From assembly GCA_900168235.1 (NCBI GenBank), contig FUZG01000009.1, forward strand, positions 62,001-126,000: a DNA stretch of 64,000 nt, read 5' to 3'. Below are positions 54,023 to 64,000 of the stretch, in pieces. The translations under genes were made by a program, and so were the position numbers. The stretch comes from Lachnospiraceae bacterium. Lineage in GTDB: Bacteria; Bacillota; Clostridia; Lachnospirales; Lachnospiraceae. A model generated the notes under the pieces. The model did not search any database. It was not told the origin of the DNA and saw nothing but the letters and a program-made list of their open reading frames with translations. Every line of letters begins with the position of its first letter. Within the stretch, counting starts at the first letter, position 1.

Positions 54023-55075
54023 ATGGGAAAAGATTCACGATATTATGCAGAATTAAAAAAGAATAAGCTCTCACAAATAAATGATATCAAGAAGGATCTT
54101 CCTGTATATACACACCAGTTTATTGATTCATGCGTCCTGAAGTATCAGATAAATACTGCGCTCGCATATGCTAAGGATGTGAGTTTATTTTTTGATTTCC
54201 TGAAGTGCCGCAATCCGCAGTGTAGTGGAGTTCAGATCAAAAATATCCCATTAAATATCCTGAGTGCATTAAATGCTGAAGATATCAATGAATTTCAGAA
54301 ATACATGGTAATGAATGACGGCGGTTCCGGTCATATGGTCAGTAACCGCACACTTGCCCGAAAGATGGCAACACTCAGGAATTTTTTCGGATATATGGCT
54401 GATAAAGGTTTCATTCCCGAAGACCCGACGCTGAAGGCTGATAAGAACCGTAAATACGAAGAAAATGATATAAAACGTCTGGATGTGGATGAGGCAAAAA
54501 GACTTATCAAAGCTGTTGAAGAAACAAAGGCAAAAACAAAACGAGGATCTGCAAGATCGAAAAACACTGCAAAACGGGACCTTGCTATCGTCATTCTCTT
54601 ACTGAACCTGGGAATCCGTGTGTCTGAATGTGCCGGACTCGATCTGAATGATGTGAATTTCGAGGACAATACATTAAGGATCGTTAGAAAAGGCGGAAAA
54701 GAAGCCATTCTTTATATAAATGAGAAAATCCGTAATACACTCCGTGATTATATAAAAAATGAACGCCCTCTTCTCACTTCCGATCCCAAAGAAGAAGCAC
54801 TTTTTATATCTTTAAAAAACAACAGACTTTCCGTAAGAAGTATCGAGGATATGCTGAAAAAATACGGCGAAGGCGCTAATCTCATAGAACGTGTCCACCC
54901 GCATAAACTCCGCCGAACCTTTGGAACCAGGCTTTATAATTCGTCAGGTGATATCTATATGGTCGCAGATGTCCTCGGCCATAAGGATGTGAATACTACC
55001 GTAAAACACTACGCCGCTGTTGACGAGGAACATAGAAGGTCGGTTGCTAATCTTGATCTTTTTGGGGAGGAATAA
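54023..55075 (+). CDS. Tyrosine recombinase, XerS-like
   Basis: A 350-residue tyrosine recombinase. An N-terminal SAM-like DNA-binding domain (LKYQINTALAYAKDVSLFFDFL) precedes the catalytic domain with Arg in LNLGIRVSECAGLDL, Lys in VRKGGKEA, HPHKLRRTFGTRLY (His, Arg), LGHKDVNTTVKHYAA (His, Tyr nucleophile). The length, the LPVYTHQFID start and the insert before KRDLAIVILLLNLG resemble streptococcal XerS, the single recombinase that resolves chromosome dimers, more than phage integrases. Whether it serves the chromosome or the adjacent element is open. GGAGG precedes the ATG. Confidence 0.88.
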   Translation: MGKDSRYYAELKKNKLSQINDIKKDLPVYTHQFIDSCVLKYQINTALAYAKDVSLFFDFLKCRNPQCSGVQIKNIPLNILSALNAEDINEFQKYMVMNDGGSGHMVSNRTLARKMATLRNFFGYMADKGFIPEDPTLKADKNRKYEENDIKRLDVDEAKRLIKAVEETKAKTKRGSARSKNTAKRDLAIVILLLNLGIRVSECAGLDLNDVNFEDNTLRIVRKGGKEAILYINEKIRNTLRDYIKNERPLLTSDPKEEALFISLKNNRLSVRSIEDMLKKYGEGANLIERVHPHKLRRTFGTRLYNSSGDIYMVADVLGHKDVNTTVKHYAAVDEEHRRSVANLDLFGEE

Positions 55076-56442: not shown

Positions 56443-57795
56443 TTAATACAATTCATCTATATTTGCATTAAACTTAAAGTTACCGGTATCTATGCCATGG
56501 CGTTTACAATAAGCTCTTATCCAATCTGCTTCCTCCTCGGTGCAGTCTTTGTTAAATCTGTGATAAGCCTGCATTAATGTTCTGTCCTGGATTTCTATTG
56601 TAATGAAAGGTGTATTCACATCGTTGCTTTTTCGCATGAATAGGATTGTAGTATCGTTATGGATCATGGCGAGAAAATAGCTCAGGAGACAGTTACTCAT
56701 ATAGATTGCTTCTCTGCAAAAGTCATTTGTCGTCTGAGGGTATCTTACAAAGTATTCTTTTCCGCGTTCCTGCCAGTCATAAAGCCGCTTACGATTAGAT
56801 CGTCTTATAGATTTATCATATTCTTCCCTTTTTACAAGAAGGTAATTATTCAATTGAAATAAAACGTTATCATTAACAGCACCTTTATGATTTTTCAGGT
56901 AATCGTAATATATTGGATCTATCATGGAAATTCGTTTTATTATGGGACCTCGTTGTCTTTGCCATTCTCTTTCTAGCGTATCCCTACGTAGGAATACTTC
57001 GAATATAGATGAGCACCAGACACTTGATAAATGTTTTCTGCTGGATAAGAATAATCTTCCTGCTTCTCCTACTGTAAGGTCACCTTTTATAAGTGCTGAA
57101 AGGTATTCACATTGTGCATCATTAAGCTCCTTTTCAAATACTTCCGGAAATTTCATGTTCAGCTCTTTTATGAAAGCTATATTATCAAGATGTCCTATAA
57201 GTGCCGCACCGGATCGGCAATTAACCGCCCGTAATATTTTCATAGACAGGCCATCGTATAAATCAGAAGGTTTGCTTGCAAATAGGTCTAACTCATCCAG
57301 ATCGTCAATGTTTGCGGCTAATTCGTCCAATCCTGCTTTGTAAAGCATTTCTTTTGCAGTGTTCTGTTTTAAGCAATTATAGATATGGTCCAAAGTCCTC
57401 AGTTTACCTGTATAGTTTTTTTTCATATGCCATTCAGGATATTCTGAAGAATATACGTCATAAATCTTATCTAAGATCTCACTAGAGTAGGCAACAAACT
57501 CATCCTTAACACATTTTTGGTGAAAGAAAGATTCTGTTTCAAAATCCCAACTGTAGCCACTATGAAAAGGCAGTCTCACGATTTTCTTTGGCATCCTGTC
57601 GAGGTCATACTCTATACAGAGTGAATCAATATATGGCTGTATCTGAAAAATGTAGAGAAACAGGCTGCTTTGAATACCTGCTCCATCATACCTAACGTTA
57701 CAAGCCATATTATATTCATCAATTTCAGGAGGAATCCAATTCTTTTCAGGTTTGTTGATATCTAATAATTTTAGAGATGAATAAAATAAATTCAT
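56443..57795 (-). CDS. PcfJ-like protein
   Basis: A 450-residue protein whose C-terminal ~110 residues match the PcfJ family of conjugative plasmids and ICEs: FCREAIYMSNCLLSYFLAMIHNDTTILFMRKSN, PFITIEIQDRTLMQAYHRFNKDCTEEEADWIRAYCKRHGI. The first ~340 residues are helical with no motif I can name. Function of PcfJ is unknown, but its usual home is mobile elements. It is the last gene of the minus-strand block. The start has no strong ribosome binding site. Confidence 0.75.
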   Translation of the reverse strand: MNLFYSSLKLLDINKPEKNWIPPEIDEYNMACNVRYDGAGIQSSLFLYIFQIQPYIDSLCIEYDLDRMPKKIVRLPFHSGYSWDFETESFFHQKCVKDEFVAYSSEILDKIYDVYSSEYPEWHMKKNYTGKLRTLDHIYNCLKQNTAKEMLYKAGLDELAANIDDLDELDLFASKPSDLYDGLSMKILRAVNCRSGAALIGHLDNIAFIKELNMKFPEVFEKELNDAQCEYLSALIKGDLTVGEAGRLFLSSRKHLSSVWCSSIFEVFLRRDTLEREWQRQRGPIIKRISMIDPIYYDYLKNHKGAVNDNVLFQLNNYLLVKREEYDKSIRRSNRKRLYDWQERGKEYFVRYPQTTNDFCREAIYMSNCLLSYFLAMIHNDTTILFMRKSNDVNTPFITIEIQDRTLMQAYHRFNKDCTEEEADWIRAYCKRHGIDTGNFKFNANIDELY

Positions 57796-57823
57796 GTGTT
57801 ATGCCTGTACATTTAAATAGAAT

Positions 57824-57867
57824 ATCTATTAGTTTTGATATGCGTATGTAAAATCTCATGAATCTTT
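57824..57867 (-). repeat. Relic copy of the YqiA-like hydrolase gene
   Basis: 44 bp that match 60467-60510, inside the hydrolase gene, at 39 of 44 positions and in the same orientation. It lies in the 106-bp gap after the PolC-like gene. Confidence 0.65.
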
Positions 57868-57901
57868 TAAGTTTCGATTTTCCGTCTCCAATTGGTACAG
57901 C

Positions 57902-59569
57902 TTATTCAGATTTCAATATAATATTTCTTGCATACATTTCCATTACTACTAATAGCTCGTTTAATAAGTCATTAGGTTGGCCGGACCTCCTATCAATACC
58001 TTGTTTCAAGAGGTCGTAATATGCTTTTCTTGCATTTTCGTATCCTTTTTTTATAAATGTTATACCAACCTCGTGGGCATAGAAATTAAGCCATCCGTTG
58101 TAATATATCTCCGGAAAATACAATTTATAATAAAGGAACTTCCATGACAGGAGTAGACGTTGTGAAGAGTCTGTTTTAGTAACCAGATAAAATACTTTAT
58201 GACACGAGTTTATATACCATTCAGGAATGCCTGCTTTTTTCATGTCATTTATCCATTCTTCTTTTAGTCCAAGATAATGTGCTTTGCCTTTTCGTACACA
58301 TTCCATAATTTTGAAAGCCGATTCTCGATTGATGCCCTTATCAAGAAGATATAGCATAATATCTTCCCTGCTTGAGATACAGTCCGAGAATGGTACAATA
58401 TGATCTCTGATTAAAAATTCTGAATTTTCTTCCCATACATTCGTTCCGTTGACCATATTTATCACTTTTAGAATGTCCGAATACCGTTTAGGACGTATTA
58501 GCTCAAGTATCTTTATAGTATCAAAACTTCCAACATCCGGAGTTCCCAATGTTCCGACAGAAACACCTTGAATATGATCCGATGTAATTCCAAGTCCTTC
58601 AGTACTTGAAAAAAGGCTTAATATCTTTTTATCATCCATAGGAATATCCTTAGGATTGACTCCGGTTGTATCAGAAAGAAAATGTAAAAAGGATAAGGAA
58701 GGATCTTGTTTTTGATTGACACATATTTGGGGAGTAGTAGTCTTTGGAGAATGGTATCCTATTATCTTAATTATTTCTTCTATGACTTGCATTTTATCTG
58801 AATAGAACATTTGTCCGATCCGATCAATATTAGCAAAATCGCATAGAATCTTTGGAAAATATTCACGTGCAAAATTCACGTCTATACAAGATCTGAAACT
58901 ATCAAAATTTGAACCCAGAAAAGGTTCAGCAGGAAGATTAAACCCGCATTTAGTCATCGATTTTCCACAGAAAGGACATTTCTTCCCTGGAAGATCAATT
59001 CCTAGATCACCAACGTTGAATCTGTGAATATTGTGAATATCAAACTCTGCTCTTTCACAGTTTCGACATATATAATGTGCCGGAAGAGGATTTGTTTCAG
59101 TAATTCCTAAAAGATATAAGATATATGATGAACCACAAGTTGCTCTGAAAAAGGCATGATACTCGCTTTTTTTACTTATTTTTATAAACTCCAGAAGAAG
59201 CATATAAAAACAAGAAAGATTGTTATTCTTTATAAAATTTAACTCTGATTCAAGACGATTTTCTACGTCTGGGGGAAGTTTTTTACCATATATTTCATGA
59301 ACAGCGTTATAGCAAAGATGAATTAGATTTTTTTCCAGATTGTTATTAAAAGAATCATTTATTTTGTCAGGAATTTTTATAAGTACCTGTAAGCCATTTC
59401 CAGGTATATTATCGTAATTAACCCCATCGGATAAATAAAAGGAAAGAGAGTCTGCAATGAATATGGTAGGAAGCCCGGCGTTTTCTGCTTCTTTAATGTA
59501 TTTTTGCGCTTCCGATACTGTATTAAGGTATTTGATTTGTGGTGGATAAAGTATTGATTGTTTTTTCAT
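57902..59569 (-). CDS. Miniature PolC-like protein, polymerase core with lost catalytic aspartates
   Basis: A 555-residue protein collinear with the palm-fingers part of Gram-positive PolC and lacking the OB, exonuclease and PHP parts. GSSYILYLLGITETNPLPAHY, the zinc module YICRNC...CPFCGK, FLSDTTGVNPKDIPMDD, LFSSTEGLGIT, GTLGTPDVGS, VNGTNVWEEN, SREDIMLYLLDKGI and FKIMECVRKGKA follow PolC in order. The catalytic PDIDLNF strand reads SCIDVNF, and the strand before the DP of LKLDILG...DP reads QICVNQK; both catalytic Asp are Cys, so polymerase activity is unlikely. A GGAGG RBS and an intact 555-codon frame indicate expression. A conserved hairpin lies 45-75 bp upstream. Confidence 0.85.
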   Translation of the reverse strand: MKKQSILYPPQIKYLNTVSEAQKYIKEAENAGLPTIFIADSLSFYLSDGVNYDNIPGNGLQVLIKIPDKINDSFNNNLEKNLIHLCYNAVHEIYGKKLPPDVENRLESELNFIKNNNLSCFYMLLLEFIKISKKSEYHAFFRATCGSSYILYLLGITETNPLPAHYICRNCERAEFDIHNIHRFNVGDLGIDLPGKKCPFCGKSMTKCGFNLPAEPFLGSNFDSFRSCIDVNFAREYFPKILCDFANIDRIGQMFYSDKMQVIEEIIKIIGYHSPKTTTPQICVNQKQDPSLSFLHFLSDTTGVNPKDIPMDDKKILSLFSSTEGLGITSDHIQGVSVGTLGTPDVGSFDTIKILELIRPKRYSDILKVINMVNGTNVWEENSEFLIRDHIVPFSDCISSREDIMLYLLDKGINRESAFKIMECVRKGKAHYLGLKEEWINDMKKAGIPEWYINSCHKVFYLVTKTDSSQRLLLSWKFLYYKLYFPEIYYNGWLNFYAHEVGITFIKKGYENARKAYYDLLKQGIDRRSGQPNDLLNELLVVMEMYARNIILKSE

Positions 59570-59614
59570 CGTTCACCTCCATAGTTGGTTATGGTATGTG
59601 AACAGTTTAAGAAA

Positions 59615-59642
59615 TGCGATGTGCACATTATGGCACATCGCA
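59615..59642 (-). promoter_or_regulatory. GCGATGTGC hairpin between mini-dnaB and mini-polC
   Basis: TGCGATGTGC / GCACATCGCA, perfect 10-bp stem. Related GCGATGYGC hairpins lie at 62643-62681 and at the end of the window, each in a gap between these replisome-like genes. Confidence 0.65.
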
Positions 59643-59686
59643 ATAGTATTTTTGAGATTCATGTCCGGAAATTTAAAAACTTGTTT

Positions 59687-60010
59687 TCACTTTCCTCCAG
59701 AAGAAGAGAAGTCCGGATTTGCAAATTTTGTATACTGGGGAAGCCAGGCAAGCTTGATAGTTCCAATAGAACCGTTTCTCTGCTTAGCGATGATGACCTC
59801 GGCAATGTTCTTTTCGTCTGTATCGGAGTGATAGTAATCATCACGGTAAATGAACATAACTACGTACTGCCTTGCGAAGAAATCATCCGGCACAAGCATT
59901 TCGGAAGCAGCGATGATGGCTTCTTTACCTAGGAACATTGCACCTATGACAGATTGTTCCGCCTCCACAGAGTGGGGCGGAACGCGATTTATCAGTGTTT
60001 CATTGTCCAT
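59687..60010 (-). CDS. DnaB head-tail protein without the helicase motor
   Basis: A 107-residue protein made of the two ends of replicative helicase DnaB. Residues 1-48 (RVPPHSVEAEQSVIGAMFLG...MLVPDDFFARQY) are the start of the N-terminal collar domain. Residues 49-100 (VVMFIYRDDYYHSDTDEKNI, AEVIIAKQRNGSIGTIKLAW, LPQYTKFAN) are the extreme C terminus. Roughly 350 residues, including the RecA-like ATPase, are missing between them with the frame kept. AAAGG precedes the ATG at 60010. Similarity to a Firmicute DnaB is high, so it arose recently from a host-like gene. It could be a decayed gene or a truncated helicase mimic. Confidence 0.85.
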   Translation of the reverse strand: MDNETLINRVPPHSVEAEQSVIGAMFLGKEAIIAASEMLVPDDFFARQYVVMFIYRDDYYHSDTDEKNIAEVIIAKQRNGSIGTIKLAWLPQYTKFANPDFSSSGGK

Positions 60011-60086
60011 AACTATACCTTTCTTTTCAAATGCACAATCATTACTCAGCATATACGTGCGCTTTAAGCGCCGAAGTTACATCTAG

Positions 60087-60668
60087 CTAATTGCAGATAA
60101 TAATATCCACAACTTTACTTGCACCTTTCGGATCAAGTTTATGTGCCATGTCTACATGAAAAATCCTGGACTGATCATTGTAGTATTGTTTGAGATATGC
60201 CTCGTTAGGAGCAATATCATCTTTCAGACCATAGAGAATGAATGTCTCCTGAGGGAGATTTTCAGTCAACATATTTGAAAAGAAGCTCTCTTTCTCGGAT
60301 TCTATGCAGTCTAAAAATGATTCTGTAAGTTCTGGATTATTATCACGATCGGAATACATGATCATCCTAAGATTATCCGGAAGGGCTATATTTACAAGAA
60401 TCTTTTTTATTTCAGGAATCTGCATCACGTAAAAGGCCCCGAGTGATGATGCAACAACACAGTCATATTTATTAGTTTGGATAAGCGTATGTAAAAGCTC
60501 ATGCATCTTTTTTGGCTCAGTTACCGGAAATTGTGGTGCGTCAATTTTTACAGAGATTCCGTGGGATTGAAACTCTCTTCTTATCAGCTCACTGGAATGA
60601 CCATTACCATGTCCAAGATATCCGTGAACATAGCGAATATTTATAAAATCGCTCATTTTTACTTTCAT
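60087..60668 (-). CDS. YqiA/UPF0227-like alpha/beta hydrolase
   Basis: A 193-residue small esterase-like protein. RYVHGYLGHGNGHSS is the oxyanion region, VVASSLGAFYVMQI holds the nucleophile Ser, and FHVDMAHKLDP the catalytic His. The start at 60668 shares one base with the stop of the upstream DnaA-like gene (TAATG), and GGAGG lies inside that gene, so translation is coupled. A 44-bp relic of the same gene lies at 57824. Its role in a replication-like cluster is unclear. Confidence 0.75.
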   Translation of the reverse strand: MKVKMSDFINIRYVHGYLGHGNGHSSELIRREFQSHGISVKIDAPQFPVTEPKKMHELLHTLIQTNKYDCVVASSLGAFYVMQIPEIKKILVNIALPDNLRMIMYSDRDNNPELTESFLDCIESEKESFFSNMLTENLPQETFILYGLKDDIAPNEAYLKQYYNDQSRIFHVDMAHKLDPKGASKVVDIIICN

Positions 60669-61384
60669 TAAAGATCCTCCAGCATTTTTTGAATGTTTTC
60701 TAGATCCGGACATGTCTTTTTAATTTTCATATGCATTTGGATGGTGTTCAAAACACCCAATAACTTACAAACATCTCTTTCACAGCCATCTGCAATACAG
60801 TTTTTAATTTCTTCGCCTAATGGTATGCTCATTTTTTTGATTTGAAAATCCAAAATATCATTGATAAGAGGTTTGTCCGGTCTTCGAATTTCTGCTAAAC
60901 AGCATGTTTCTATTAGAGCCCTAAATTTCCCACAATCTTCAAAAAGCTTTGCAGGGGGTAAATATGAAGTGATTAATACCTTTTTCCCCATCAAAGTCAG
61001 ATCTTCGATAATGTAAAATAATTCTGATTGGGTTGATTGCAGACTTTGTACAAATTCTATGTTGTCACATATGAATACATCTGCATCACGGTACTTCATC
61101 CTCATTTTTTTCATTTCAGAGTTTCCGCTTCTAATGCAATCGATTACTTCATTGGCAAAATTTTCGGCAGTAACATATTCTATTTTGATATTTAGATTTT
61201 TTTCATGGATGGCATTAGCAACCGCATTTACTAAATGTGTTTTCCCAACTCCTGCTTCGCCATAAATAAAGAGAGGGCTATTATCTCCAACTGTGTTTGC
61301 AAACATTTTGGCTGCTTCTACCGTAAAAGAATTAGTTTCTCCAACCACATAATTTGTAAAGGTATAGTTTTCATTAATTTTCAT
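60668..61384 (-). CDS. DnaA-like AAA+ protein, domain III only, altered Walker B
   Basis: A 238-residue protein resembling DnaA domain III. Walker A is LFIYGEAGVGKTHLVNAV; the Walker B strand reads ADVFICDNIEFV where DnaA has LLIDDIQF, so the second Asp is changed to Asn and ATP hydrolysis may be weak. There is no domain I/II and no C-terminal DnaA-box-binding domain IV. A GAGG site precedes the ATG at 61384. It is co-transcribed with the hydrolase. It may bind DnaA or other AAA+ partners (DnaC/Hda/DnaI-like role). Confidence 0.82.
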   Translation of the reverse strand: MKINENYTFTNYVVGETNSFTVEAAKMFANTVGDNSPLFIYGEAGVGKTHLVNAVANAIHEKNLNIKIEYVTAENFANEVIDCIRSGNSEMKKMRMKYRDADVFICDNIEFVQSLQSTQSELFYIIEDLTLMGKKVLITSYLPPAKLFEDCGKFRALIETCCLAEIRRPDKPLINDILDFQIKKMSIPLGEEIKNCIADGCERDVCKLLGVLNTIQMHMKIKKTCPDLENIQKMLEDL

Positions 61385-61428
61385 GTACACCTCGACTGTT
61401 TGTAATGCTTAAACCTAAAAGATATACT

Positions 61429-61782
61429 TCATCTATTCGTATCATGGTAATCTTCATCCAGATAACACTGATAATGCCGGCTTCCATCTATATGAACTCT
61501 CGGAGGTTTTGTTAGATTGAATCTTTTTATAAGCTCCGGCAAATATACCTCATCGATAAATTGGCTCATGTAAATCACCGGTTTTCCTTTGCTTGTTACT
61601 TCGAGTCTGCCACGTGGATAGTAATCAAAAGTTTTCTGACAGCCTTTTGGCTTTACATGATCCCACAGTTCTTTATGGTTATAATTTCTACCTTTTTTTG
61701 ACAGTCCGACTGTATTTTTCTCATCGTATAAGACAACGAGCAGTTCACCCTCTATGAGCCAGAAAACACCTCTGTTTTCCAT
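61429..61782 (-). CDS. Hypothetical protein between the two DnaA-like genes
   Basis: A 117-residue soluble protein, basic in the middle (SKKGRNYNHKELWDHVKPKGCQKTFDYYPRGRLEV) and acidic at the end. I do not recognise the family. The start at 61782 has AGGTGA upstream; the gene begins 15 bp after the first DnaA-like gene, so it is probably in the same transcript. Confidence 0.65.
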   Translation of the reverse strand: MENRGVFWLIEGELLVVLYDEKNTVGLSKKGRNYNHKELWDHVKPKGCQKTFDYYPRGRLEVTSKGKPVIYMSQFIDEVYLPELIKRFNLTKPPRVHIDGSRHYQCYLDEDYHDTNR

Positions 61783-61797
61783 ATAGATCACCTACTT

Positions 61798-62568
61798 TCA
61801 CTCTGTGCAAATCACATCTTTTAAAATGTTTTTTGCCATTTCAAGTGTAACGGTAGGCTTCGAAAGCTCTAAGTACGCGATAATACTGGTTATTGCACCT
61901 TCGACCTCGCTAAGGTTAGTACCTGTATTGAAAGTGATATATTCAACAACTTCATCCCTAAGCATCAATCCATGCTCCGCAGCTTTCATTCGGACCAGAT
62001 TACTCTTCATCGCACTGTCCGGGGCTTTTATCTCTGCAATAAGTCCCATTCCCATTCGTATTTTCATGTGCTCATCAAATTTCATTTTTTTAGGTGGCTT
62101 ATCCGATGAAAAAAAGATCTGGCTTCCGTTTCGTAACAGCGTGTCGATAGCATGTCCAAGCTCAGTAAGAGCGGCCTTTTCGCCGACCAGATATTGAATA
62201 TCATCTATAAGGAGCACATCCGCATATCTGTAGGTTTCGCGAATCATAGCTCTTCCGTAATTATCAATAGTATTTGTCGCAGCAGATATATCGTTTATAA
62301 ATTCCTCGGAAGTCACATACAATACATTCTGCTCAGGATTTCTATCATTAAGCGTACCTTCAACCGCTTTTAACAGATGAGTCTTACCGGTTCCGCTTCC
62401 GCCATAAATAAACAGTGGATTGAACGCTTTGCTATGCTCGCAGGCGACTGCTTTTGCGGCATTATATGCGATAATATTTCCTTCGCATGTAATAAAGTTA
62501 TCAAAGTCATAGACAAGTTTTTTGGATGTAGAATCGTCAATGATTGTTGTATTAATTGATATTTCCAT
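61798..62568 (-). CDS. DnaA-like AAA+ ATPase, domain III only
   Basis: A 256-residue DnaA domain III protein with intact ATPase motifs: Walker A LFIYGGSGTGKTHLLKAV, Walker B ADVLLIDDIQYL, sensor I SSDKPPK, MGLIAEIKAPD and sensor II region NLSEVEGAI. The chromosomal DnaA helix-turn-helix domain IV and the N-terminal domains are absent; at 256 residues it is close in size to Hda or DnaC/DnaI-like loaders. AAGGAG precedes the ATG. First gene of a four-gene run. Confidence 0.88.
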   Translation of the reverse strand: MEISINTTIIDDSTSKKLVYDFDNFITCEGNIIAYNAAKAVACEHSKAFNPLFIYGGSGTGKTHLLKAVEGTLNDRNPEQNVLYVTSEEFINDISAATNTIDNYGRAMIRETYRYADVLLIDDIQYLVGEKAALTELGHAIDTLLRNGSQIFFSSDKPPKKMKFDEHMKIRMGMGLIAEIKAPDSAMKSNLVRMKAAEHGLMLRDEVVEYITFNTGTNLSEVEGAITSIIAYLELSKPTVTLEMAKNILKDVICTE

Positions 62569-62642
62569 GAATTGCTCCTTCTTCCCGTGGACTGCTTTTC
62601 ACACTCAGTAGTGATCGTGTTCTCTTCTGCTTTGATATTAAA

Positions 62643-62681
62643 AAAAGCGATGCGCCTTTTTTAGCACACATCGCTTAATAA
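62643..62681 (-). terminator. GCGATG hairpin with T run after the DnaE-like gene
   Basis: On the minus strand AAGCGATGTGT / GCGCATCGCTT (with two G-U pairs) closes a GCTAAAAAAG loop and is followed by seven T. It lies 26 bp past the DnaE-like stop and 75 bp before the DnaA-like start, so it may terminate the former or attenuate the latter. Confidence 0.7.
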
Positions 62682-62706
62682 TGGTTTCAAAACAGATATT
62701 TGTTTT

Positions 62707-63906
62707 TTAACTGCATCTTACTTTATGCTGATTACAAACTTCTGAAAAAGCAGTTTTATATTCGTCAGGGTAGTAATAGTTTAACCAGGCTTTCTGATAT
62801 ATGAGCATGGAATAGGACATGAAATGCGATTTATTTCCGGCGTAAATTGCCATTTTCTCCATAATAGTAAAGATGCTATTACCCTCATCTTCTGTTATAC
62901 CGCGTGAAATACAGCCGGAAATCCCATCTTTTTCGCTTCCGTAGATAAATTTGTTTCGAATATCCTTAATTAGAGCTGTATCTCTTCTTCCCAAAGCACG
63001 CCTGGCTTCATTGCTCTGCTCAGGAGAGAAGCCACCGATACGTTTTAAGACGGCTATTATCTGTTCCTGGTAAATCAGTAAGCCATGAGTTGTTTTTATA
63101 ATATCGTTATAGATCCCATTGACGAAGTATTTTTGAGCAGGCTGTCGTCTGTTTTCTATGTATAAATCAAATGTTTCTTTGTGACTCCATATGTTATCGC
63201 TTTCCGGATGAAGTATATATCCGGAAGTCAATTCCTCCAGCGAGCGGGGAGACATTTTAATAAAGAAATCGTCAATAAAGTCATTCCCAATCACATCAAA
63301 AACATTTTTGTCTGTAAAATCAATATTATATAAATCGAGTGCTTGACCTCTTTCCTTATAGATAATCTGTAATGTTCTGCATATTAATCTCAATGAAGGA
63401 ATAACAGCAAATAGTGACTCATCCTGTGATACGGTTATCTCCAAGGAATTCGGGTTCGAATTATATTTCTGTATAGCATAGTCATATACCTCGTTTTGCC
63501 TGTAGGGATCAAAATCCAGAAATTCTTCTTTCTCACCTTTATAATTATTTGGAAGGAATCGTTCAAATAGCAGATCATATTTCATCGGATCCAATTGTGT
63601 AATATCAAGGCAATATGAAACCATGCTTGACGGCAACGGTCCTCTTCCGGGACCAACAAAAATACCTTGCGACTTTGCATAGCGGATACAATCCCATAGT
63701 ACAAGGAAAAAATCAGTCAGGCCGTAATGATGAATTACTTCAATTTCATGATTCAGGCGCTTTTCAATATATTCATTACATCCTGAGTATTTTTTATATG
63801 CCCCTTCAAAGCTTAGCTCTTTTAGATATGAAAAAGGATCATGTCCTTCTGGGCAATTAAAGTCAATTTTATCATCTGAACAGCAATATGTTCTGAAAAT
63901 AAGCAT
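62707..63906 (-). CDS. Miniature DnaE-like protein, no PHP domain
   Basis: A 399-residue protein matching the palm-fingers core of bacterial DnaE. IRYAKSQGIFVGPGRGPLPSSMVSYCLDITQLDPMKYDLLFERFL is the palm start, LLIYQEQIIAVLKRIGGFSPEQSNEARRALGRRD the fingers, and NKSHFMSYSMLIYQKAWLNYYYPDEY the family KSHAAAYA block. The catalytic PDIDIDF strand reads EEFLDFDP, so at least one metal ligand is displaced and activity is doubtful. The N-terminal PHP domain and C-terminal beta-clamp/tau regions are absent (normal length is over 1000). It is the most upstream gene of the block inside this window. Confidence 0.82.
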   Translation of the reverse strand: MLIFRTYCCSDDKIDFNCPEGHDPFSYLKELSFEGAYKKYSGCNEYIEKRLNHEIEVIHHYGLTDFFLVLWDCIRYAKSQGIFVGPGRGPLPSSMVSYCLDITQLDPMKYDLLFERFLPNNYKGEKEEFLDFDPYRQNEVYDYAIQKYNSNPNSLEITVSQDESLFAVIPSLRLICRTLQIIYKERGQALDLYNIDFTDKNVFDVIGNDFIDDFFIKMSPRSLEELTSGYILHPESDNIWSHKETFDLYIENRRQPAQKYFVNGIYNDIIKTTHGLLIYQEQIIAVLKRIGGFSPEQSNEARRALGRRDTALIKDIRNKFIYGSEKDGISGCISRGITEDEGNSIFTIMEKMAIYAGNKSHFMSYSMLIYQKAWLNYYYPDEYKTAFSEVCNQHKVRCS

Positions 63907-63985
63907 GTTTACAGCCTTCTCCTTCTTAAAAATGATTGCTTTGTCGCAGCTTTATTTTTTTATATATCTTTACTACTGTATAGTA

Positions 63986-64000
63986 AAAAAAGCGATGCGC
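63986..64000 (-). promoter_or_regulatory. Third copy of the GCGATGCGC hairpin arm (cut by window end)
   Basis: AAAAAAGCGATGCGC at the window edge is identical to the left arm of the hairpin at 62643. It lies 80 bp upstream of the DnaE-like start. The other arm is outside the window. Confidence 0.5.

Follow-up and report, generated by a model that had tools for sequence, protein, structure and literature searches.

DnaE and PolC paralogues with lost catalytic aspartates in a WYL-led gene module of Lachnospiraceae and other bacteria: possible subunits for interference with replication

Several described systems come close to the locus treated herein, a cluster of eight uninterrupted minus-strand open reading frames (ORFs) at positions 56443-63906 of a stretch of 64,000 nucleotides (the window) from a Lachnospiraceae bacterium (assembly GCA_900168235.1, contig FUZG01000009.1, positions 62,001 to 126,000), where shrunken paralogues of PolC, DnaB, DnaA and DnaE stand together. 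The exonuclease-less PolCs of Clostridia and Negativicutes (PMC3919608) have the same architecture as many of the accessory PolCs found here; they differ in that the accessible part of that survey gives no WYL context for them. Selected lineages of dead C-family polymerases are absent from the available parts of two surveys, one of which (PMC3919608) required an intact polymerase active site and so excluded dead copies by design. In the DnaE2 mutasome a dead polymerase paralogue, the inactive PolY ImuB, likewise serves as a non-catalytic subunit (PMC12926913, as far as its available text goes), but it is of the Y family with other partners, whereas here the polymerases are of the C family (DnaE, PolC) and go with DnaA and FtsH; no Y-family (ImuB-type) match is listed among the nine window proteins scanned against family models. 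WYL regulators are described, in the abstracts and excerpts available, as responsive to single-stranded DNA (ssDNA) or linked to defence (PMC11804915, PMC12340889, PMC9122601, PMC10693628), and those of defence or DNA damage such as BrxR, PafBC and DriD likewise lie beside an accessory cluster; as compared with the available descriptions of those loci, the cargo adjoining the WYL gene here is new. Hda, finally, is like our mini-DnaAs a DnaA AAA domain without domain IV, but the mini-DnaAs score 87.1 and 69.4 bits against an Hda cutoff of 194.8 (NCBIfam TIGR03420), and 233 and 188 bits with the DnaA model, which is above their Hda scores and below that model's own cutoff. From the comparisons below we tentatively read the locus as part of a WYL-switched module not described before, in which the dead paralogues of replisome proteins may be non-catalytic recognition or interference subunits, either in defence or in the control of element replication; we give this reading somewhat less than an even chance.

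The window is part of a 156-kb contig, in a host genome of 3.79 Mb in 28 contigs, and its features of interest are as follows (lengths in amino acids, aa; family matches in brackets).

56443..57795, minus strand: PcfJ-like protein, 450 aa, last gene of the cluster (PF14284, 1.6e-12)
57902..59569, minus strand: dead mini-PolC, 555 aa (NF001688, 6.5e-109 in two stretches)
59687..60010, minus strand, in an ORF that opens at 60052: mini-DnaB, 107 aa from an ATG with its own ribosome-binding site, RBS (PF00772, PF03796)
60087..60668, minus strand, in an ORF open from 60713: UPF0227 (YqiA-like) alpha/beta hydrolase (PF05728, 7.2e-8)
60668..61390, minus strand: mini-DnaA 1, 240 aa, AAA domain only (TIGR00362, 4.2e-55)
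61429..61791, minus strand: F120, 120 aa, marker of the module (family scans without match)
61798..62568, minus strand: mini-DnaA 2, 256 aa, AAA domain only (TIGR00362, 5.6e-69)
62707..63906, minus strand: dead mini-DnaE, 399 aa (NF005298, 3.6e-83)
54023..55075, plus strand: tyrosine recombinase, at the island's left edge (PF00589, 1.2e-39)

In fact, all five replisome-like minus-strand genes that the original prediction had named are uninterrupted ORFs with strong family matches, and full-length parents are encoded elsewhere in the host (PolC of 1526 aa, DnaE of 1226, DnaB of 453 and DnaA of 460). Its statement that they carry good RBSs holds in part: the RBS is clear for mini-PolC and plausible for mini-DnaA 2, mini-DnaE and mini-DnaB; for mini-DnaA 1 an RBS (GAGGTG) is plausible if the ATG at 61384 is used, and for F120 likewise (AGGTG) if the ATG at 61782 is used. 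The UPF0227 start at 60668 overlaps the stop of mini-DnaA 1 (TAATG) with GGAGG ahead, so that the two form a coupled pair, and no RBS was found on inspection of the start of the PcfJ-like gene. The cluster has a GC content of 36.1% against 42.3% in window positions 1-55000. A 10-pair hairpin, terminator-like on both strands, lies at 59615-59642 between mini-DnaB and mini-PolC.

The two polymerases have lost catalytic residues and kept the fingers. The mini-DnaE lacks the PHP domain and about 125 residues of the palm and ends after the fingers; in the alignment all three of the palm Asp which we take to be catalytic (the assignment, for DnaE as for PolC, is our assumption) are gone, in agreement with the predicted alteration of its metal site, and the motifs GPGRG, YQEQ, RRAL and NKSH are retained. 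It matches solved chains of Pol III alpha in two parts. The catalytic Asp are likewise lost in 3/3 aligned mini-DnaE relatives, and the copies of loci L073, L106 and L089, at 32-42% identity to that of the window, have in common with it the N-terminus, the internal deletion, the C-terminus and the dead site. The mini-PolC keeps the fingers, has lost PHP domain and exonuclease as well as some of the palm, and stops short of the C-terminal region with the clamp motif; the two Asp-to-Cys changes claimed for it are there, with SCIDVNF in place of PDIDLNF and QICVNQ in place of KLDILG, and the third palm Asp is retained. Its match in the PDB is 3f2b, and the fingers domain PF17657 is present in both window polymerases (3e-13 and 2.1e-18).

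With the mini-DnaE as query, 141 of 150 genomes of the family (149 genera) were matched, the listed matches outside the window lying in frames of at least 573 aa; the mini-DnaE relatives came instead from the WYL scan described below. The mini-PolC matched 92 of 99 genomes, and among the matches listed are accessory frames of 827-930 aa in genomes G030, G007, G008, G028 and G051; a WYL gene of the window's family adjoins the accessory PolC in G030 and G007, and in the other three a helix-turn-helix-type regulator, judged by eye, adjoins it instead. Several shrunken PolCs (L101, L110, L115, L132, L092, L105) retain the catalytic motifs. In a PolC tree of 36 rows, 14 chromosomal PolCs form one group (99/97) with L092 and with the PolC of plasmid pCY186, which is treated below. 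The remaining 20 accessory PolCs are placed outside this group, with the dead forms in several separate branches; the window protein groups with the active-looking G030 and the dead L138 (97/94), and with L138, a long branch, at 88/72. Judged by this tree, the predicted loss of catalysis in PolC is an event that happened separately more than once. In viral contigs searched with the mini-PolC, four pattern matches were obtained and none was confirmed; of 50,697 phage records, 1192 match mini-DnaE and 53 mini-FtsH, all below 60% identity and with full-length and shrunken forms not told apart.

Other arrangements of polymerase genes were also seen. A Selenomonadales metagenome-assembled genome carries PolCs in tandem, two dead and one active-looking at L115:3254-10546, and one dead and one partly degenerate at L114:3672-7857. 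In WYL loci at L075:14901-15461 and L112:11006-11677, PolC consists of the exonuclease domain alone, and L131 (5307-6983 and 14086-15783) has two ORFs of about 560 aa matching the PHP part of the mini-PolC and the palm part of the mini-DnaE.

Both window DnaAs carry PF00308 (2.1e-38 and 1.3e-44) and a Walker A motif, and mini-DnaA 2 also retains Walker B. Domain IV, which binds the DnaA box, is absent from both, as had been said of them, and from all 11 aligned mini-DnaAs, where the rows of L080 and L090 are slices of fusions (the full ORFs also being without domain IV) and that of L064 ends at an in-frame stop; domain I is retained in one of the 11 (L075). The Arg of the host motif SNIRELEGAL, which we take to be sensor II, is lost in both window copies and altogether in 7 of the 8 rows reaching the motif, which sets the mini-DnaAs further apart from Hda. 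Relatives of mini-DnaA stand beside F120 in G031 (54% identical to mini-DnaA 2) and G042 (44%, with an in-frame TAA stop). The mini-DnaB consists of the first 49 and the last 58 residues of this clade's dnaB product, and a single in-frame deletion of 345 codons at a 3-nt repeat has removed the RecA-fold ATPase core, in line with the claim that the ATPase is missing; it matches positions 2-52 of 103 in PF00772 and 207-255 of 255 in PF03796, with about half of the N-terminal domain left, and its RBS is similar to that of parent-type dnaB. Compared with dnaB of G000, G014 and G031 it has a synonymous distance (dS) of 1.07-1.31 and a nonsynonymous distance (dN) of 0.028-0.033. We dropped mini-DnaB as a proof of selection, since the low dN (0.03) at a dS of about 1.1 could date from a full-length past.

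UPF0227 and F120, which did not figure in the title of the original prediction, turn out to be linked parts of the cluster. Fusion within a single ORF joins DnaA to UPF0227 in L080 and L082, which come from two near-identical strains, to FtsH in L090, and to F120 on pCY186; DnaA is the partner in all three types. Because these fusions have DnaA as their hub, the DnaA-type ATPase, the FtsH protease, UPF0227 and F120 appear to make up a functional unit, and the dead polymerases may be its partners. The mini-FtsH, a soluble form, keeps Walker A and HExxH in 23/23 ORFs above 380 aa (22 distinct genes, one being counted twice) and has no hydrophobic N-terminal segment like that of host FtsH. A PD-(D/E)XK-like family (ctx_349), encoded beyond the window cluster, has E175, D220, E239 and K241 invariant in nine sequences. 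F120 has no match in Pfam, PHROG, NCBIfam or PADLOC; six of 48 genomes of the genus match it, own genome included and G020 weakly, and a profile search matched 10 of 392 genomes of the order. A possible TGA recoding within F120 was considered and dropped, as the L064 match runs to the gene end, where the stop sits. Next to F120 in L064, and in the WYL locus L129 (at 43%), there are relatives of the PcfJ-like protein.

To see how far the set recurs, a species-genome collection was scanned with a WYL alignment, which gave at least 585 pattern stretches, 120 of them confirmed, and 80 loci were kept, with hosts in Butyrivibrio, Pseudobutyrivibrio, other Lachnospiraceae, Selenomonas, Anaerovibrio and others. 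In searches with the host parents, where a copy counts as shrunken if it is below 75% of parent length and not at a contig edge, shrunken PolC, DnaE, DnaA, DnaB or FtsH, dead or not, occurs in 35 of the 80 loci and in none of 36 control windows of 20 kb, which have no full-length match of these families either; the controls are ordinary chromosome and not other islands, so the enrichment holds over the genome at large. Among loci of at least 15 kb the figure is 23/44; it is 26/80 when FtsH is left out, and at least two kinds occur together in 13/80. The original prediction saw a set of replisome paralogues, which describes the five window genes well and the class too narrowly, as FtsH is the commonest shrunken family (20 of 80 loci, followed by PolC in 16, DnaA in 6, DnaB in 6 and DnaE in 4). 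In the 20 closest WYL loci together with pCY186 (n=21), we counted MBL 17 times, the PD-(D/E)XK-like protein 13, mini-FtsH 12, mini-DnaA 8, F120 7, UPF0227 7 and mini-DnaE 4; in the other 60 loci, mini-FtsH 12, mini-DnaA 3, MBL 2, and F120 and UPF0227 none. Moreover, of six F120 loci inspected, four being new and two (L245, L247) lying on contigs as long as those of L085 and L109 and so not counted as new, WYL together with MBL is seen in 4/6, mini-FtsH in 3/6, dead PolC in 2/6 and mini-DnaE in 1/6: for example, L242 holds F120, mini-FtsH, a full DnaB, mini-DnaE, MBL and WYL, L246 has F120 with a WYL gene, and L247 combines F120 with AAA680, DUF2779 and a partial WYL gene. Related islands of the genus carry WYL, MBL, UPF0227 and F120 in varying sets, and further shrunken paralogues, namely FtsH without the membrane part, DnaB as the core only, and FtsK with a Walker A degenerate by eye. 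The module is patchily distributed over Lachnospiraceae, Selenomonadaceae and a Ruminococcus plasmid, presumably by horizontal transfer.

A plasmid copy is found on pCY186 of Butyrivibrio proteoclasticus B316 (NC_014390.1), where the module spans BPR_RS19065-RS18990 and is annotated piecemeal, mini-DnaE and dead PolC as 'hypothetical' and mini-FtsH as 'AAA family ATPase'; the available parts of the pCY186 literature yielded no description of this gene set. Its order, with a few small genes omitted, is WYL, hyp278, MBL, hyp227, dnaX, mini-DnaE, mini-FtsH, dead PolC and F120-DnaA, followed by SGNH, full PolC, DnaB, an IstB/DnaC-type ATPase (PF01695) and Rep3. It is thus like the window system in WYL (76%), MBL (60%), mini-DnaE, mini-FtsH, dead PolC and the DnaA linked to F120, and differs by having in addition a full-length PolC, which retains PDIDLNF, LKLDILG and QLSIF, as well as DnaB, the IstB/DnaC-type ATPase, DnaX and Rep. 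On plasmid pRUMAL01 of R. albus 7, F120 occurs together with a YqiA-type hydrolase and a gene annotated as WYL. A 73% identical SGNH hydrolase is shared by L026:17140-17763, about 6 kb from the G030 mini-PolC, and L230:14954-15586, inside the replisome block of pCY186.

As for the surroundings, the locus has its own WYL gene beyond position 64000, at L023:13125-14363 (window-equivalent 69125-70363). The mobile-element context that had been proposed fits with the tyrosine recombinase, a possible mobility gene of the island, with addAB-like genes (by eye) beyond the island, and with the related block on pCY186. An overlapping pair of AbiE-type appearance adjoins the WYL gene at L023:14388-16123 (window-equivalent 70388-72123) and comprises a nucleotidyltransferase, with a sub-cutoff match to AbiEii (PF08843, 0.0019), and a 329-aa partner; the pair has no PADLOC match, and relatives of both members stand together in L131. 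At L023:9173-9940 lies a 255-aa protein, uracil-DNA-glycosylase-like by eye and without a Pfam match, whose relative adjoins the WYL gene in L097. A second WYL-led stretch of the same island (L024:47-6888; also L066, L067) encodes a 690-aa AAA protein and a UPF0227-like fusion of about 440-450 aa, and L067 has a 324-aa FtsK paralogue with a Walker A degenerate by eye, to which pieces at L023:18487-19021 are similar.

It could be supposed that such genes are only decaying duplicates of housekeeping genes in an AT-rich island, as the look of mini-DnaB as one deletion in this clade's dnaB, the in-frame stop in the G042 mini-DnaA and the graded reductions among PolCs would have it. This is contradicted, for mini-DnaE and dead PolC as families, by substitution rates among copies already dead: mini-DnaE pairs among pCY186, L089 and L242 have dN and dS of 0.136/0.87, 0.184/1.03 and 0.147/0.73, dead PolC pairs 0.043/0.17, 0.263/1.37 and 0.352/1.75, so that the ratio is about 0.16-0.25 in these six informative pairs, and both families are under purifying selection. 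Moreover, the mini-DnaEs share their deletions at 32-42% identity, the window ORFs are intact, and the loss is selective, since the FtsH motifs are kept while the polymerase sites are lost. Decay as an account of the whole is accordingly quite unlikely; the set recurs elsewhere and its dN/dS is well below 1, where neutral values had been named as the sign of decay. A pure decoy defence, in which the fragments bind and titrate replisome partners of phage or host, is also unlikely. It would suit the joint occurrence of different replisome paralogues within a single island, the frequent company of WYL regulators with defence (PMC9122601, in its accessible part), and the HEC-06/SspE-like and Mrr-type genes near relatives; but it needs contact surfaces, several of which are missing in the window copies. 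The original prediction held that each protein keeps its protein-contact regions, which did not bear out, as PolC ends before the clamp motif, DnaE ends after the fingers, the OB/CTD is gone and DnaB has much of its N-terminal domain missing. Besides, the catalytic motifs of FtsH and of some PolC and DnaB members are intact, which a decoy would not require; the claim that motors and catalytic sites are gone holds for the window and not for the class, because FtsH is motif-intact in every copy counted and active-looking PolCs and full-length PolC and DnaB occur.

A more serious rival is that the module belongs to the replication control of a mobile element, where paralogues of an element-borne replisome regulate copy number or the use of the host replisome, without any defence; we regard this as doubtful, and as no less doubtful its corollary that the chromosomal islands are integrated or reduced descendants of such an element. 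It draws on pCY186, where the module stands together with the motif-intact full PolC, full DnaB, IstB/DnaC-type ATPase, DnaX and Rep3, on L089, where DnaX and a PolC lie beside mini-DnaE and mini-FtsH, and on the full-length DnaB inside the set of L242. However, at E 1e-6 the Rep proteins and loader of pCY186 have no homologue in any of the 80 loci, nor in the window, L023 or L024 (other Rep types not being searched). If ORFs truncated at a contig edge are set aside, every PolC and DnaB in the 80 loci falls short of 75% of its parent's length, and the full pCY186 PolC groups with the chromosomal PolCs while the dead ones are in separate branches, so that the two sets have different histories. 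A further alternative, and a very unlikely one, is another kind of mutasome: WYL would induce damage tolerance, and dead polymerases would assist an exonuclease-less PolC in the way that ImuB assists DnaE2. An active-looking PolC of this kind directly adjoins WYL in G030 and G007, L115 has its tandem of two dead and one active-looking copy, and PafBC, a pair of WYL proteins, governs the response of mycobacteria to DNA damage (PMC11804915, in the part available); yet no PolC in the window looks active, almost every aligned mini-PolC ends before the C-terminal clamp motif (L092 is an exception), and the nucleases, the protease and UPF0227 would be left without explanation. The present data do not separate defence from element replication control, and the umbrella reading of conflict or interference is the one that we favour, though at a little below even confidence.

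In favour of the interference reading are the enrichment over control windows, the gene sets at the F120 loci, the common dead architecture of the mini-DnaEs, the purifying selection, the selective loss, the fusions, the recurrent loss of the DnaA Arg, the separate losses of PolC catalysis and the published links of WYL regulators to ssDNA or defence. Dead DnaE or PolC and mini-DnaA recur as families, in the same loci as a motif-intact soluble FtsH-type protease, MBL-fold and PD-(D/E)XK-like proteins, UPF0227 and F120. The WYL regulator would sense the ssDNA of disturbed or foreign replication and switch the operon on, as the abstracts on WYL regulators suggest. The dead polymerases and the DnaA-type ATPase might then assemble on forks or DNA ends, entering or recognising replication complexes without supporting synthesis, the mini-DnaE perhaps by its nucleotide- and template-contact motifs, which are still present, and the ATPase with ATP binding probable and DnaA-box binding not. 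The linked protease and nucleases would act on what the dead subunits mark, and the net effect might be that replication of invading or competing DNA is blocked or biased; on plasmids such as pCY186, beside a full replisome set, the own fork could be favoured. A bolder form, possible though rather doubtful, is a 'shadow replisome', a WYL-switched complex in which origin-blind DnaA ATPases and a soluble FtsH go with dead DnaE and PolC, and which assembles on foreign or stalled forks and destroys or silences them; it is about as doubtful that the class represents conflict systems arising from repeated capture and disabling of replication proteins, some of them from the host's own clade.

Several observations weigh against the interference reading and should be set beside it. 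The window mini-PolC lacks most of its nucleotide-contact motifs as well, and the own WYL gene is separated from mini-DnaE by an MBL gene, two PD-(D/E)XK-like genes and two others. The mini-DnaB may by itself be a recent deletion product and is the weakest part of the case. The PD-(D/E)XK identity is a tentative one that rests on invariant residues, the family having no Pfam match and a weak Foldseek match to McrC (E 0.014, prob 0.38), and an F120 model (pLDDT 84) has no PDB fold at E<=0.001. At the level of the class, 45 of the 80 WYL loci are without a shrunken paralogue (21/44 among those of at least 15 kb), some of the 35 positive loci are not independent (one genome supplies both L076 and L102, and L080 and L082 are from near-identical strains), and gene content is strongly variable across loci; with F120 and UPF0227 in none, and MBL in two, of the 60 loci outside the closest ones, the complete set characterises a single WYL clade. 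The selection measurements come from relatives, distant pairs, including window mini-DnaE against L073, being saturated at dS, and a seventh, very close pair of dead PolCs (L243-L087; 0.026/0.06) has a ratio of 0.4 with too few changes. In PADLOC 2.0 the WYL regulator is the sole specific match, with nothing for PolC, DnaE, UPF0227, MBL, F120, mini-DnaB or PcfJ and generic AAA only for the DnaAs; mini-FtsH has an AAA-level match to IetA (7.7e-21), where the rest of the IetA system was not looked for. In the PHROG scan the core proteins match only their parent families, and in the open-access literature, subscription papers being outside that scope, no account of the module was found.

Few known proteins are as constrained as DnaA and the bacterial replicases. 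A module that repeatedly disables such proteins yet conserves their folds would allow a direct test of the ways in which the replication fork is read and attacked by defence systems or mobile elements, for which pCY186 and the Butyrivibrio and Pseudobutyrivibrio records are starting points.

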